A stretch of DNA of 27,900 bases from a virus. The notes beneath the pieces are model-generated. The model was given only the letters and a program-made list of their open reading frames with translations, made no database searches and was not told the DNA's origin. The stretch covers positions 1 through 27,900 of the IMG/VR virus record IMGVR_UViG_3300008119_000511; one strand, 5' to 3'. A program made the translations under genes and the position numbers. This document shows, piece by piece, positions 9,361-14,903 of the stretch (positions are counted from its first letter, which is position 1; every line of letters begins with the position of its first letter).

Positions 9361-9637
9361 TGGCTAATAAGTTTTATACAAAACAAAGTTTAGCAGAGAG
9401 AACGAGTTACAACTTGGTAATTTTACTATTGCTAAAGGTGATATCATTAAAATAGAGGGAGAACATGGTCTCAAATTTAAGTTTGATGCTGTTGTAACTA
9501 ATACCGAAAATGGTAAGGTCTGGGTAGATTGCTTTGAGATGCAGAAGTCAACCGCTACTGCATGGCGTTCGTTTGACCCTGAAAGAGTTAAGCGTATTCC
9601 AACAAAACGAGGAAGACGAAAGAAAAATGTCGATTGA
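9360..9637 (+). pseudogene. Small conserved gene split by an apparent -1 frameshift
   Basis: ATG 9360 overlaps the ruvC stop (TAATG) and encodes MANKFYTK, then closes in that frame after about 24 more codons. In the -1 frame an open stretch from 9371 to 9637 reads as a compact beta-rich protein: FTIAKGDIIKIEGEHG, then VTNTENGKVWVDCFEM, then a basic tail. This resembles DUF7246-like actinophage proteins, by memory of the pattern. The long frame has no ATG, GTG or TTG before its conserved part. One extra A in the run at 9380-9383 would join both parts into about 92 residues. It could be a sequencing or assembly error, a true loss, or ribosomal slippage on AAAA. It overlaps the terminase start by 11 bases. 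Confidence 0.7.
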
Positions 9638-11741
9638 AGATTTAACAGTTGAACATCTCGATGAGATGAACAAAGTTGTGGAGAAGTATCTCCAGGGTGA
9701 AGAGCCTACCCAGATTTCTAAGGAACTAGCCTTGCCAAGACAAAAAGTTGTTGCTCACATTAACCAGTGGCGTGTGATGGCTTCTGACAATGCTGCTATC
9801 CGTGCTAGGGCTAAGGAAGCCTTGGTTGGTGCAGACACACACTACAATAAACTAATTAGTAAAGCATATGAAGTAATTGATGATGCAACTACCACAGCCA
9901 ATCTAGGGGCTAAGACCGCAGGTATTAAACTTGTGATGGACCTAGAAAAGACTCGTATCGACATGCTACAAAAGGCTGGCTTACTTGAGAACAAAGAACT
10001 CGCAGAAGAGATGCTAGAGATTGAACGTAAGCAGGATATTCTTCAGCAACCACCACTGTCACAAATTCAGTACGACATCGTAGAGGCTATGAGCCAAATC
10101 TACAAACTAGAAGAAGTCATTGAAATCCTGGGGGAGACAGAGGGTCGTAGATACTATAATAAGTATACAAAGAACGAAGTAATCCTACAACTAGGAAAAG
10201 GTTCTGGTAAGGACTTCGTATCTACAGTTGCTTGTTGCTACATCGTTTATAAGTTACTTTGTCTTAAAGACCCTGCTCGTTACTTTGGTAAGCCTACTGG
10301 CGATGCTATTGATATTATTAACATTGCGATTAACGCACAACAGGCTAAGAACGTTTTCTTTAAAGGCTTCAAGAATAAGATTGAACGCTCTCCATGGTTT
10401 GCTGGAAAATACTACGCAAAGGCAGACAGCATTGAGTTTGATAATGCTATTACTGTTTATTCTGGTCACTCTGAGCGTGAGTCTCACGAAGGTCTAAACC
10501 TTATCCTTGCAGTACTGGACGAGATTTCTGGTTTTGCTAATGAGGTTGGAACTGGTAATGACCAAGGAAAGACTGCTGACAACATCTACAAAGCCTTCCG
10601 TGCTTCCGTAGACTCTCGCTTTCCTGACCTTGGAAAGGTAGCCCTACTATCTTTCCCTCGCTATCCAGGAGACTTTATCTCTACCAGATACGATGCAGTT
10701 ATTGCAGACAAAGAGGTTGTAACAAAGAAACACAAGTTTGTTATGAATCCAGACCTACCAGAAGATACAGAAGGAAATACTCTTGATATTGAGTGGGATG
10801 AAGACAATATTTTAGCATACAAGTTTCCTGGAATGTTTGCCATTAAAAGACCTACATGGGTAGTAAACCCTACTCGTAAAATTGATGACTTCAAGTTAGC
10901 ATTCTATACAGACCTTGGAGATGCTATGATGCGTTTTGCTTGTGTCCCTACCTACGCTTCCGATGCCTTCTTTAAGCAGCAAGAAAAAGTTCGTGCTTGC
11001 ATGACAATCGTAAACCCTATTGATTCTAATAAAAGTTTTATGGAGTCTTTTAAACCAGACCCAGACAAAAAATATTTTGTCCATGCTGACCTTGCACAGA
11101 AACATGACAAGTGTGCTGTGGCTATTGCCCACGTTGAGAAGTGGGTAAATGTGCAGGTAGTTAAAGACTATGCTCAAGTAATGCCTATTGTAGTCGTAGA
11201 TGCAGTAGTATATTGGGAGCCAAAGATTGAAGGTCCTGTCAATCTTTCAGAGGTAAAGCAGTGGATTCAAAATCTACGAAGGCTAGGATTTGATATAGGC
11301 ATGGTTTCATTTGACCGATGGCAATCATTTGATATTCAAAATGAATTAAAGGCTGTTGGTATAAAGACTGAGACTGTATCTGTTGCCAAGAAACACTATG
11401 AGGATATGGCTATGCTTGTTTACGAAGAGCGTCTGGCTATGCCAGCCATAGAGTTGCTGTTTGAAGAACTAACAGAGTTAAAAATTATGAGGGGTAATCG
11501 TGTAGACCACCCTAGAAAGTCCTCTAAGGACCTTGCAGACGCTGTTTGTGGTGCTATCTTTGGTGCTATCTCCCACACTGTCAAAGACAACAATCAAATG
11601 ATAGAGATACATACATTCCGTGATAGAAAACCAACGGAAGAACTGCATGAGTTTGACAAACGTAGTATCATTGAACGCAATAGACCAGAGCAAAAAGACC
11701 TAGACTCATACTTTAAACAGTTTAACATAAATATAATGTAG
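9627..11741 (+). CDS. terL: Terminase large subunit with N-terminal helix-turn-helix region
   Basis: A 704-residue packaging motor. Residues 27-47 (ISKELALPRQKVVAHINQW) look like a helix-turn-helix, followed by a helical region to about 150. The ATPase begins near 150: Walker A is GKGSGKD at 190-196 and Walker B is LAVLDE with D298 and E299. The C-terminal RNase H-like nuclease has D488 in FVHADLAQK, D563 in SFDRWQ, and D635/D638 in KDLADAV. ATG 9627 is chosen because the frame upstream is taken up by the preceding gene, and AGGAAG lies upstream. No separate small terminase gene is next to it, so the N-terminal region may do part of that DNA-recognition job; that is inference. Confidence 0.93.
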   Translation: MSIEDLTVEHLDEMNKVVEKYLQGEEPTQISKELALPRQKVVAHINQWRVMASDNAAIRARAKEALVGADTHYNKLISKAYEVIDDATTTANLGAKTAGIKLVMDLEKTRIDMLQKAGLLENKELAEEMLEIERKQDILQQPPLSQIQYDIVEAMSQIYKLEEVIEILGETEGRRYYNKYTKNEVILQLGKGSGKDFVSTVACCYIVYKLLCLKDPARYFGKPTGDAIDIINIAINAQQAKNVFFKGFKNKIERSPWFAGKYYAKADSIEFDNAITVYSGHSERESHEGLNLILAVLDEISGFANEVGTGNDQGKTADNIYKAFRASVDSRFPDLGKVALLSFPRYPGDFISTRYDAVIADKEVVTKKHKFVMNPDLPEDTEGNTLDIEWDEDNILAYKFPGMFAIKRPTWVVNPTRKIDDFKLAFYTDLGDAMMRFACVPTYASDAFFKQQEKVRACMTIVNPIDSNKSFMESFKPDPDKKYFVHADLAQKHDKCAVAIAHVEKWVNVQVVKDYAQVMPIVVVDAVVYWEPKIEGPVNLSEVKQWIQNLRRLGFDIGMVSFDRWQSFDIQNELKAVGIKTETVSVAKKHYEDMAMLVYEERLAMPAIELLFEELTELKIMRGNRVDHPRKSSKDLADAVCGAIFGAISHTVKDNNQMIEIHTFRDRKPTEELHEFDKRSIIERNRPEQKDLDSYFKQFNINIM

Positions 11742-11772
11742 TGGTATAATAGTTTTGTTGGGCACTTCCAAC
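11742..11772 (+). promoter_or_regulatory. Extended -10 promoter with a 5'-end hairpin
   Basis: TGG plus TATAAT (11745-11750) forms an extended -10 box directly after the terminase stop. Predicted +1 is 11757. The first 16 transcribed bases form a small hairpin, GTTGG (11757-11761) with CCAAC (11768-11772) around a six-base loop, just before the AGGAG site at 11774. A hairpin at the 5' end could protect the mRNA. Confidence 0.7.
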
Positions 11773-11785
11773 TAGGAGATTACAA

Positions 11786-13726
11786 ATTAAAAAACCCCAA
11801 ATTATTTTAGCAGTTATAACCCTAGCACTTTCCCCTATTTTTTTAGCACAGTCAGCATTTGGAGAAACAAAAGCAGAGTATAGTGCAAAAGTAGAAGAGG
11901 CAAAGGCTGTCGTTAACGCTATCCAGGATGCCCTAACTCTTGCTCAAGAAGCCTACCAGATAGCGGTAAATGAAAAGGCTGCCATAGATGCTACGGTAGA
12001 GTCAAACAAAACAATCCTAGATAACAAAATTCTAGATGTACAAAGCAAACAATTGCTTGTAGACAAAGCACAAGCAAGTCTAGACTTGGCTAAAGAAAAC
12101 TACAACATAAAATTAATTTCAGACCCTGACTGGATTAGACCAGACAAAGAAGTTACACAGACTATTGATGTGGCATATACAGTTCAGGTTCCTTATACTG
12201 AGTTAGTCCCAAGAGTAGAACTTGTGCCAAGAACAGTTTTAATACCTTACACAGAGATGGTTCCTTATTTAGATTATGAGCCAGTTGAGGTTACAAGGGT
12301 AGTCCCAGGTGGACTTACAGCAACATCTTACAACAGACAGGGCTACAATAATGCACCACCACTACCAACAGAAACAGAAACACCACTGGCAACTGAAAAT
12401 GTACCTAACATTAATTTTCAGTGGGGCGGTGGATTGGTCCTGAACTCTGGAAAGGGTGAAGATGTTCTTGTTAAGTTTGAGGGAAATCTAATGGTTCCAG
12501 AAGATAACTGGTACAGTTTCTATGCACCAGCAGATGATGGAGTAAAACTAACTATTGCTGGAATGAATCTAATCAATGACTGGAGAGATAAGGGTGGTGG
12601 TGGCTCTATATCAGAACCTATGTGGATTAGAGCAGGTATCTTTTACCCAACCACATTGTATTACTATGAAAATGGTGGTGGAGCCTTTGTAGAATTTTAC
12701 TCACAAGTTTCTGGAGGTAACATGGAAATAGTTCCTGCAACTTGGTTTGGAGAAACAACAGTAACAGAAACAATTTATCAGCCAGTTGTAAAGTATCAAG
12801 AAGTAACTTATTATAGAGAAGAGATTGTTTACGATGAGGTTACAGTATATGACGAGATTACTTTATTTAGAGAAGAAACTAGATACAGAAAAGAAGACAT
12901 AATTGTAATTGTTCCAGACGAGGATGCTACTGCACCACTAATTAATGACCCAGCCTTGGCTATAGTTGTTGGATTGGTACAAATTGAGTTAGATGAAAAA
13001 CAATCTATTTTATTATCTGCAACGACAGATAGAAACAGGCTACAGCAAGACTACGAGTCTTCCCTGATTACTCAAGCAGAAAAAGCAGGTATAATTGAAG
13101 TAGCATCGCAAGATGTAATAACTAAACAGGAGGAACTACTTGTCGCTCAACAAAAACTTGACTCCATTCCACCTTACGAAGAGCCAACACCTACACCTAC
13201 GGAGACCGAGGAACCTACTGAAGAGCCAGAGGAAGTTGAGCCAGAACCGATACCAGAGCCAGAGCCGCCAGTGTCCCCCGAACCCAGTGAACCTGAGTTA
13301 CCAGTAAATATTGAAACGGTAGACCCACAAACACTTTCAGAAGAGCAGGTTGCAGAACTAGTATCTGTTGCAAACGAAATCCTAGACAACTCGGAGCAGG
13401 GTTCTCCAGAGTATGAAGAAGCCCTAGATGCATTGTTCGTTGCTGCACAGGCAGACGATATTGAGGTATCTGAGGAACTTGCAGCCATTCCTGGTTTGTT
13501 AGCCGCAGTAGACGCAATTAACTTTATTGGTAACGTTGGAGCAGACATGTCTCCAAAGGTTCGTGAAGAATCAGAGAAGATTGTTGTAACAGCAGTTGTT
13601 GCAGTTGGTGCAGCAGTTAACGCAGCAACAGGAGCGGCACTCACAGCCGCAGCCCCATCAGCACCAGCATCATCTGCATCAGCAGGTGGCTCAGGTGGAA
13701 CGTCAGGCACAAGGAGGAGAGATTAA
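11786..13726 (+). CDS. Exported PA14-domain protein with hexapeptide repeats, probable ATT start
   Basis: A 646-residue protein. AGGAG (11774-11778) is seven bases before ATT at 11786, which opens directly into a Sec signal peptide: KK, a hydrophobic core IILAVITLALSPIFLA, and a likely cut after G26. No ATG, GTG or TTG lies in frame until TTG 12053, which would drop the signal peptide and the first 89 residues. Order: signal peptide; Ala/Glu-rich coiled coil (30-110); hexapeptide repeats (135-170); PA14-like domain (about 206-321, with YSFYAPADDGVKLTI and WIRAGIFYPTTLYYYE); further hexapeptide repeats (331-372); coiled coil; Pro/Glu-rich linker; Ala/Ser/Gly-rich tail ending RRRD. PA14 domains bind carbohydrate or protein. 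It is probably a secreted or virion surface protein. No anchor is seen. Confidence 0.8.
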   Translation: MKKPQIILAVITLALSPIFLAQSAFGETKAEYSAKVEEAKAVVNAIQDALTLAQEAYQIAVNEKAAIDATVESNKTILDNKILDVQSKQLLVDKAQASLDLAKENYNIKLISDPDWIRPDKEVTQTIDVAYTVQVPYTELVPRVELVPRTVLIPYTEMVPYLDYEPVEVTRVVPGGLTATSYNRQGYNNAPPLPTETETPLATENVPNINFQWGGGLVLNSGKGEDVLVKFEGNLMVPEDNWYSFYAPADDGVKLTIAGMNLINDWRDKGGGGSISEPMWIRAGIFYPTTLYYYENGGGAFVEFYSQVSGGNMEIVPATWFGETTVTETIYQPVVKYQEVTYYREEIVYDEVTVYDEITLFREETRYRKEDIIVIVPDEDATAPLINDPALAIVVGLVQIELDEKQSILLSATTDRNRLQQDYESSLITQAEKAGIIEVASQDVITKQEELLVAQQKLDSIPPYEEPTPTPTETEEPTEEPEEVEPEPIPEPEPPVSPEPSEPELPVNIETVDPQTLSEEQVAELVSVANEILDNSEQGSPEYEEALDALFVAAQADDIEVSEELAAIPGLLAAVDAINFIGNVGADMSPKVREESEKIVVTAVVAVGAAVNAATGAALTAAAPSAPASSASAGGSGGTSGTRRRD

Positions 13727-14193: not shown

Positions 14194-14247
14194 TTGACAA
14201 ACCCCTTTCGGTGCCCTATAATTGATATAGACCTGAAAGGGGTTTTT
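14194..14247 (+). promoter_or_regulatory. Promoter nested in a terminator-like hairpin
   Basis: TTGACA (14194-14199) and TATAAT (14217-14222) are 17 bases apart, a consensus promoter with +1 near 14229. An 11-bp perfect inverted repeat encloses it: AAACCCCTTTC (14199-14209) and GAAAGGGGTTT (14235-14245), with more Ts to 14247. Transcripts arriving from upstream can form the hairpin, ending transcription or hiding the AAAGGGG ribosome binding site. Transcripts from the internal promoter lack the left arm and keep that site free. Confidence 0.85.
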
Positions 14248-14249
14248 CT

Positions 14250-14489
14250 ATGTCAATGACTTTTGACGAATGGCTACAACATGGCTTAACACAAGGCTGG
14301 GTTGGTCCTGCTGTATGCAGTACACACGATGGCATCCCTACTACTAGAGACGAAGACCTAGAGTGGGAAACTGGAGACCCATGCATTCATGTATTAAGAT
14401 TGTATGAAGATGAAGCAACCAAGTTGGCTGTGGAAGAAAATCATGCTCCGTCTGTATGGCGAGCAACCAACAGTGGTTACACTGTATAA
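14250..14489 (+). CDS. Conserved small actinophage-type protein
   Basis: A 79-residue acidic protein. The ribosome binding site AAAGGGG (14236-14242) is the right arm of the hairpin described upstream; an in-frame ATG at 14256 is the alternative start. The pattern includes EWLQHGLTQGWVGPAVCSTHD, then a GDPCIHVLRLYED segment and VEENHAPSVWRATN, which I associate with a recurring protein of actinobacteriophages of unknown role. The two cysteines and several histidines could bind metal, but the spacing is not a known motif. It is read from its own consensus promoter and lies just before the tRNA cluster. Confidence 0.8.
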   Translation: MSMTFDEWLQHGLTQGWVGPAVCSTHDGIPTTRDEDLEWETGDPCIHVLRLYEDEATKLAVEENHAPSVWRATNSGYTV

Positions 14490-14500: not shown

Positions 14501-14573
14501 TGGGCATTAACTCAGTTGGCAGAGTGTTCGACTGTTAATCGAAATGTCCCTGGTTCGAACCCAGGATGCCCAG
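14501..14573 (+). tRNA. tRNA-Asn (GTT)
   Basis: Acceptor arms TGGGCAT (14501-14507) and ATGCCCA (14566-14572) pair over seven bases with discriminator G. The D-arm (ACTC/GAGT), anticodon arm TTCGA/TCGAA with anticodon GTT at 14534-14536, and T-arm CCTGG-TTCGAAC-CCAGG are all intact. CCA is not encoded. It reads AAC and AAT codons, which are frequent in this window. Confidence 0.95.
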
Positions 14574-14682
14574 CAGAGACCAGACACGCAGACTAAGATT
14601 CGGTGGCTTAACAGAAATACTAGTAAAGACTGTTACAGATGTTGTTCCTATTTGGGTTGTTAAGGAACATTTGATTTCGTAG
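14566..14682 (+). CDS. Candidate 38-residue ORF in the tRNA cluster
   Basis: An ATG inside the acceptor end of tRNA-Asn opens a 38-codon frame that ends inside the first bases of tRNA-Asp, filling the only large gap in the cluster. The peptide starts MPSRDQTRRLRFGG and continues with an amphipathic, beta- or helix-like stretch TEILVKTVTDVVPIWVVKEH. The composition looks protein-like, but a frame this short arises by chance often, and no good ribosome binding site precedes it. The same stretch contains a 7-bp hairpin TGTTCCT/AGGAACA (14643-14669). It could be a real small gene or plain spacer. Confidence 0.35.
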   Translation: MPSRDQTRRLRFGGLTEILVKTVTDVVPIWVVKEHLIS

Positions 14683-14746
14683 TTCAGTTGGTCAGAACGC
14701 TACCCTGTCACGGTAGAGGTCGTGGGTTCAAGTCCCATCGGAATCG
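14673..14746 (+). tRNA. tRNA-Asp (GTC)
   Basis: Acceptor arms GATTTCG (14673-14679) and CGGAATC (14739-14745) pair with one G-U. The anticodon arm has TACCC, loop TGTCACG and GTAGA-type pairing, with anticodon GTC at 14707-14709. The T-arm is TGGG-TTCAAGT-CCCA. CCA is not encoded; only one base separates it from the next tRNA. Confidence 0.93.
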
Positions 14747-14747
14747 C

Positions 14748-14819
14748 AGCGATATAACTCAATGGAAGAGTGCTTGCCTACGAAGCAAGATGTTGTAGGT
14801 TCGAGTCCTGCTATCGCTA
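14748..14819 (+). tRNA. tRNA-Arg (ACG)
   Basis: Acceptor arms AGCGATA (14748-14754) and TATCGCT (14812-14818) are fully paired. The anticodon stem is CTTGC/GCAAG, with loop CTACGAA and anticodon ACG at 14780-14782. The T-arm is GTAGG-TTCGAGT-CCTGC. An ACG anticodon needs conversion of A34 to inosine to read CGT and CGC well; CGT is the main Arg codon in the phage genes here. Confidence 0.93.
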
Positions 14820-14820
14820 C

Positions 14821-14892
14821 GCCACCTTAACTCAGCGGTAGAGTGCCATACTTGTAATATGGAGGTCAACAGTTCAAATCTGTTAGGTGGCT
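14821..14892 (+). tRNA. tRNA-Thr (TGT)
   Basis: Acceptor arms GCCACCT (14821-14827) and AGGTGGC (14885-14891) pair perfectly. The anticodon arm is CCATA/TATGG with loop CTTGTAA and anticodon TGT at 14853-14855. The T-arm is AACAG-TTCAAAT-CTGTT. CCA is not encoded. It reads ACA, a very common Thr codon in the neighbouring genes. Confidence 0.95.
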
Positions 14893-14903
14893 CCGATTAC
14901 GAA

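Follow-up and report, generated by a model that had tools for sequence, protein, structure and literature searches.

The window, by which we mean the whole 27,900-nucleotide stretch analysed here (positions 1 to 27,900 of IMG/VR record IMGVR_UViG_3300008119_000511), carries the gene for the terminase large subunit (terL) and, behind it on the same strand, a long reading frame whose product contains a PA14 domain (Table 1). Terminase and DnaE were 51-55% identical to those of Stanwilliamsviridae phages of Streptomyces; the host would be actinobacterial and probably lives in freshwater. Two cultured phages of Nanopelagicales have been described (PMC10202952). In many of the terminase relatives (L097-L113 and others), terL is followed by the gene of another, distinct exported protein (MTSFKKPLIAIA...), which begins with an ordinary ATG.

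Farther downstream in the window (14195-14250), a sigma-70 promoter matching the consensus at 12 of 12 positions (TTGACA-17-TATAAT) lies inside a terminator-like inverted repeat (arms 14196-14209 and 14235-14248), which is followed by a T run directly before ATG 14250, i.e., a promoter nested within a terminator hairpin. Positions 14501-14894 hold a tRNA cluster, largely kept in relatives, for Asn(GTT), Asp(GTC), Arg(ACG) and Thr(TGT). An unusual phage initiator tRNA was considered and rejected, as the anticodons in the window and 23 loci were those of ordinary elongator tRNAs; none with CAU or AAU was seen in this set, the loci of which are partial genomes.

Table 1. Features of the terL-PA14 gene region of the window.
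Feature	Position	Strand	Basis or remark
Terminase large subunit (terL), upstream gene	9534..11741	+	51-52% identical to terminases of Stanwilliamsviridae Streptomyces phages
Sigma-70-type promoter, TTAACA-17 nt-TATAAT, extended TG	11722..11750	+	11/12 consensus positions
RNA hairpin GUUGG-GCACUU-CCAAC	11757..11772	+	covariation; begins at predicted +1 (~11757)
Shine-Dalgarno AGGAG	11774..11778	+	sequence; SD-start spacing 5-9 nt in 75/75 leaders
ATT start codon	11786..11788	+	SD-led; conserved as ATT/ATA/ATC
CDS, 646 aa	11786..13726	+	signal peptide to C-terminal hydrophobic helix and RRRD tail
Sec-type signal peptide, residues 1-28	11786..11869	+	KK, hydrophobic core, small residues
PA14 domain, residues 187-275	12344..12610	+	Pfam PF07691, 26.4 bits (cut-off 24)
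C-terminal hydrophobic helix, residues 590-621	13553..13648	+	within the family's most conserved domain; model

The reading frame and its leader

Upstream of the gene, its frame is closed by TAG 11750-11752 and open from 11753 on; inspection of the window placed seven nucleotides (ATTACAA) between the AGGAG Shine-Dalgarno (SD) motif and ATT 11786, from which 646 codons follow. The earliest in-frame ATG, GTG or TTG is TTG 12053, which lies 89 codons past the ATT and has no SD motif. ATT 11786 is the sole start-like codon with an SD match in the first ~140 codons of the frame, and no other ORF in the window combines a sole SD-led start at AUH (AUU, AUA or AUC throughout) with a lack of canonical starts over 100 codons; with a well-spaced SD and no canonical alternative, the codon belongs to the AUH-start class. 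Between ATT 11786 and TTG 12053, the counts of differences per codon position, by which alone coding bias upstream of the TTG was judged, matched the expectation for a fast-evolving coding region. Because ATT 11786 is the only SD-led start-like codon that preserves the signal peptide, it is, judging from the sequences, almost certainly used as the start codon, presumably with fMet, and start sites elsewhere are implausible for the PA14 gene.

The promoter overlaps the 3′ end of terL, and a −35 element matching at at least 4/6 positions was present at the same spacing in 93 of 104 GTTGG-type modules (not de-duplicated) of the collected loci. The transcription start was predicted from the −10 hexamer only; the hairpin begins 5-6 nt past this hexamer, i.e., at the predicted start, in 56 of 73 leaders. 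Across 36 distinct leaders, whose rows were picked for an alignable hairpin, 94.4% of the cells of the six-pair stem were paired. Compensatory changes on both sides occurred in five of the six stem pairs (e.g., GC to AU, UA to CG and GC to CG), and cells changed on both sides numbered 35 against a mean of 9.8 after shuffling, with slid controls dropping off; the alignment was made on sequence only, but the structure was derived from the same sequences, and two rows (L033 and L036) are offset by one column. Pairing was thus kept while stem and loop sequences varied (GTTGG, GTTAG, GTCAG, GTTGAAC, GTCAAC and GTTAAGCT; loops of 3-11 nt), and in most leaders the stem ended 0-2 nt short of AGGAG. 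The first 84 nt of the mRNA as a whole folded no better than shuffled sequences; the folding signal resides in the hairpin and its covariation. With its covariation and its position within a few nucleotides of the predicted 5′ end, the element has the makings of a 5′-terminal stem-loop. Among the collected loci, the combination of −10, hairpin and SD was nearly confined to the PA14-family gene.

Start codons across the family

Searching viral contigs at the protein level gave 48 loci, and the relatives that could be aligned at the N-terminus retained the signal peptide. The start was AUH in 17 of the 19 loci inspected, the two most distant having ATG and GTG. Two IMG/VR contigs from different metagenome sets (L002 and L003) had identical bases at the start, and ATT was retained in contigs from many further metagenomes. 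A preliminary description of the window had proposed that the gene starts at ATT together with a signal peptide, seven bases behind AGGAG and with no canonical start between the stop at 11750 and TTG 12053. These coordinates and counts proved right, and the proposal itself is strongly supported, as near homologues retain both the signal peptide and AUH; a search among homologues for starts elsewhere that lack the signal peptide did not refute it. The promoter, the covarying hairpin and the lineage-wide conservation go beyond that description.

A DNA pattern composed of promoter, hairpin and SD, which ended at the SD and left the start codon unspecified, matched 38 stretches. Together with the earlier loci, these made up 24 distinct leaders, all of which enter the signal-peptide frame: 23 at ATT, one at ATA (L010) and none at ATG, GTG or TTG. 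In L012, L013 and L016, TAA stands immediately 5′ of ATT, which excludes in-frame translation from upstream there. Relaxing the pattern brought in ten further contigs (nine with ATT and one, L167, with ATC), including gene copies elsewhere in the genome and very different proteins, and a search for hairpin and SD without the −10 added three more family members, all with ATT, amid chance matches. A wider set was assembled by a profile search and by scanning the collected loci for a −10, a leader, an SD, an ATN, GTG, TTG or CTG codon and a signal-peptide-like start; after six spurious matches had been removed by hand, 75 leaders remained. Their starts were 55 ATT, 4 ATA, 3 ATC, 7 ATG, 4 TTG and 2 CTG, in a pool drawn from several, mostly family- or leader-directed searches, so that percentages hold for this sample and not for phages in general. 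Whatever the distance between SD and start (Table 1), it always led to a start in the signal-peptide frame, and the set covered proteins down to 31% identity, swapped middle domains (L162 and L141) and other genomic sites (L158, L160 and L164).

A sample not directed at the PA14 gene consisted of 80 loci chosen by terminase similarity alone, in which AGGAG-led ORFs of at least 120 codons were considered. Their starts were ATG (39), GTG (6), TTG (3) and AUH (25), and all 25 AUH starts belonged to signal-peptide proteins of the PA14-gene family, which means that, in this sample, AUH belongs to this gene and not to these phages generally. The idea that these phages use AUU as a start in general was accordingly rejected, the other AGGAG-led ORFs in the 80 loci starting at ATG, GTG or TTG.

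Other starts were found in further lineages of the family: ATG (L274, L313 and L322), GTG (L275, L316 and L319), TTG (L276, L318, L326, L327 and L024) and ATA (L314 and L324). The last two (L314:3683-6526 and L324:3680-6736) form a separate lineage that lacks the 5′ hairpin and has an apparent ATA start behind GGGGGAG. A seven-row subclade, L086-L096, has a like 5′ hairpin (GTCAG/CTGAC) followed by an ATG start, from which it follows that hairpin and AUH are separable and not strictly tied. These loci and L328, which share that hairpin and the ATG start, lack the conserved C-terminal anchor domain; they are natural counterparts against which to gauge what the AUH codon contributes. In-frame codons upstream, in the hairpin region, were present in a few members (TTG in L004, L017 and L299; ATG in L297 and L307) and were rejected as starts, being neither SD-led nor conserved.

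ATT made up 55 of the 62 AUH start codons (89%) and 56% of the 1866 internal isoleucine codons of the same genes, an excess at the start with a binomial probability of 2.5e-8 when kinship is ignored. When 76 family proteins were arranged in a tree (a quick one, with long branches flagged), the AUH label required eight changes, seven of them forced by supported branches, and the AUG label three; AUH persisted across the whole of a 26-row clade and over the greater part of a bigger one. Several third-base changes to A or C were seen inside AUH clades, and none to G. Taken alone, the absence of a change from AUH to AUG is not significant, the changes being too few; the persistence of AUH across proteins only 31-50% identical, with ATG a single substitution away, is the stronger argument for selection. 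The ATT start thus looks as if it were held by selection within a fixed leader module in dozens of related lake phages.

The exported product

The order of domains is signal peptide, coiled-coil arm, PA14, second coiled-coil arm, Pro-rich linker and C-terminal helical domain. The N-terminus, IKKPQIILAVITLALSPIFLAQSAFGET, resembles a Sec signal peptide: by inspection it has a positive n-region, a hydrophobic core and small residues at the cut site, and the relatives have a clean cut (...ASA/ET or ...AFA/QT). An AlphaFold2 model built on a 26-row alignment (mean pLDDT 70.7, pTM 0.32) is informative for local elements only and not for their overall arrangement. It has a signal helix (residues 4-19), long helices at 29-108 and 389-459, long strands, the PA14 domain, a disordered Pro-rich linker and the C-terminal helix; the two long helices may pair as a rod in this model. 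Foldseek related the PA14 part to sugar-binding domains from adhesins of bacteria and flocculins of yeast (e.g., 6x7z and 6m8m), and also to PA14 proteins of uncultured phages. Since it opens with a signal peptide and closes with a hydrophobic helix and a basic tail, the product is probably an exported, membrane-anchored surface rod with a PA14 domain of the sugar-binding type.

The most conserved region of the family is the C-terminal domain around NFxGNVGADMSPKVREESKK and the next hydrophobic helix, which is recognisable despite an exchanged middle in L141, L156, L157 and L162. In L162 (5519-7555), the PA14 middle is replaced by unrelated sequence between conserved ends, and, together with L141 and L156, this suggests that the exposed portion of the surface protein is swapped as a module. 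Searched with the window protein, the collection of cultured phages yielded no close member of the family, its only PA14 match being a weak one in Pelagibacter phage HTVC008M; the C-terminal domain had no significant match among cultured phages. Bacterial genomes gave a single PA14 match, in a Paludibacter MAG. Fold and sequence neighbours occur among PA14 proteins of uncultured Caudovirales (BFVD A0A6J7WSJ6, 34% identity), a likeness assessed at the level of the proteins.

Readings of the ATT start

Because dozens of relatives share the odd start behind a conserved hairpin, the ATT gives the impression of a purposeful brake on output and not of a sequencing error. Errors do occur in single contigs, and the codon could be a misread ATG at 11786; with the same codon recurring in dozens of contigs from different metagenomes and in divergent sequence, an error was rejected for the family, and its probability at this position is negligible. 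It is also highly improbable that the frame is entered from elsewhere, by an upstream start followed by frameshifting or bypass or by read-through from terL, with the ATT as an internal isoleucine codon. TTG TTG at the 5′ end of the hairpin, in a different frame, and a run of AAAAAA after the ATT in some members could be taken to point that way. In-frame stops, however, lie 12 codons upstream in the window and one codon upstream in L012, L013 and L016, and the spacing from SD to ATT stays at 5-9 nt while the frame shifts relative to the hairpin. The TTG has no SD and sits at the predicted 5′ end of the transcript; a short ORF from it with a subsequent frameshift was rejected, as its frame runs into a stop (TAG) before the SD in the window and in other haplotypes (L006 and L008). 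A conserved open upstream frame, as expected for programmed frameshifting or bypass, was not found; the upstream stops differ among relatives.

We consider it probable that the leader is a selected module, in which a sigma-70 promoter, a 5′ hairpin, AGGAG and an AUH start jointly set a low, metered output of the surface rod protein. The strong promoter would supply abundant transcript, and the hairpin would shield it from decay that depends on the 5′ end, 5′ structure being known to stabilise mRNA (PMC3997798). The strong SD would keep 30S subunits docked, and the third-position mismatch of AUH with the initiator anticodon would make initiation slow and sensitive to IF3, a factor that favours strong third-position pairs (PMC10158994) and represses non-canonical starts such as that of Streptomyces sigR (PMC5472188). 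The surface protein would then be made slowly and at low, metered output despite strong transcription, and a Sec substrate metered in this way might respond to IF3 levels. A wider proposal, that a large group of uncultured freshwater phages evolved the module to slow one variable surface protein, reading the state of IF3 and ribosomes as a timing signal, is conceivable but doubtful.

Two other readings keep the ATT as start. That the hairpin is a translational operator, bound by a phage or host protein that blocks the SD, with the weak start tightening the switch, is rather unlikely. The short distance from stem to AGGAG resembles that of known operator hairpins, and the near restriction of the module to a single gene would suit a dedicated switch; the divergence of stem and loop sequences under constant pairing, however, fits a requirement for structure and not recognition of sequence. 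Quite unlikely, too, is an inherited poor codon that is tolerated without any regulation. AUU does initiate, at a reduced rate (PMC13009471), and the strong SD and the A-rich downstream codons could compensate for it. A single T-to-G change would nevertheless give ATG, and within AUH clades the third base has moved only to A or C; ATT is in excess over its share of internal isoleucine codons, and the other genes of the same phages use ATG, GTG and TTG.

The principle of initiation limited by an unusual start codon is already known from infC, pcnB, cvfC1 and sigR, and the phage AUU gene would work like known AUU-limited genes; what is new is the lineage-wide setting in phages and the gene's own RNA leader. 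To our knowledge, conserved AUU starts have been described for no more than a few bacterial genes, and a phage family using them systematically was not found in the open-access full-text papers searched. Like infC, the phage gene has a conserved AUH codon after a strong SD, and the feature common to both would be discrimination by IF3 against AUU. They differ in that infC encodes IF3 itself and is autoregulated, whereas the phage gene encodes an exported protein behind its own promoter and 5′ hairpin. The infC-type autoregulation that the preliminary description brought up found no specific support, the product being a PA14 protein and not IF3; an IF3 encoded by the phages was likewise rejected, as the IF3 C-domain (PF00707) had no match across 12 records of related phages, some of which are incomplete.

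With pcnB of E. coli (AUU) and with cvfC1 (AUU) and ccpN (AUA) of S. aureus, the phage gene shares an AUU or AUA start and, presumably, its limiting effect on translation. We know of no 5′-terminal hairpin module at these three genes, which are cellular and do not encode a phage surface protein; the phage family, in contrast to them, switched repeatedly among AUH, UUG, GUG and CUG. In S. aureus, AUU and AUA starts give ~10% of the output of AUG and are conserved at cvfC1 and ccpN together with strong or extended SDs (PMC13009471). For sigR, an actinobacterial precedent of regulation via an IF3-disfavoured start (PMC5472188), the codon is GTC and not AUH, and the gene encodes a sigma factor and is a member of a translationally coupled pair. 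The leader also recalls stabilisers of the ompA, papA and aprE type. Those genes start at ordinary codons, whereas the phage hairpin, a putative stabiliser, precedes a weak start. What they have in common is a short hairpin at the transcript's 5′ end (a predicted end in the phage), ahead of the ribosome binding site (see the references of PMC3997798).

The odd codon persists over deep divergence, beside a covarying hairpin and before exported proteins with exchangeable middles, and dozens of natural AUU, AUA, AUC, CUG, UUG, GUG and AUG variants of one gene make start-codon strength comparable. Gene callers that admit only ATG, GTG and TTG would start such genes 4 to 174 codons late; the late start often drops the signal peptide, so that exported phage proteins may be misannotated.
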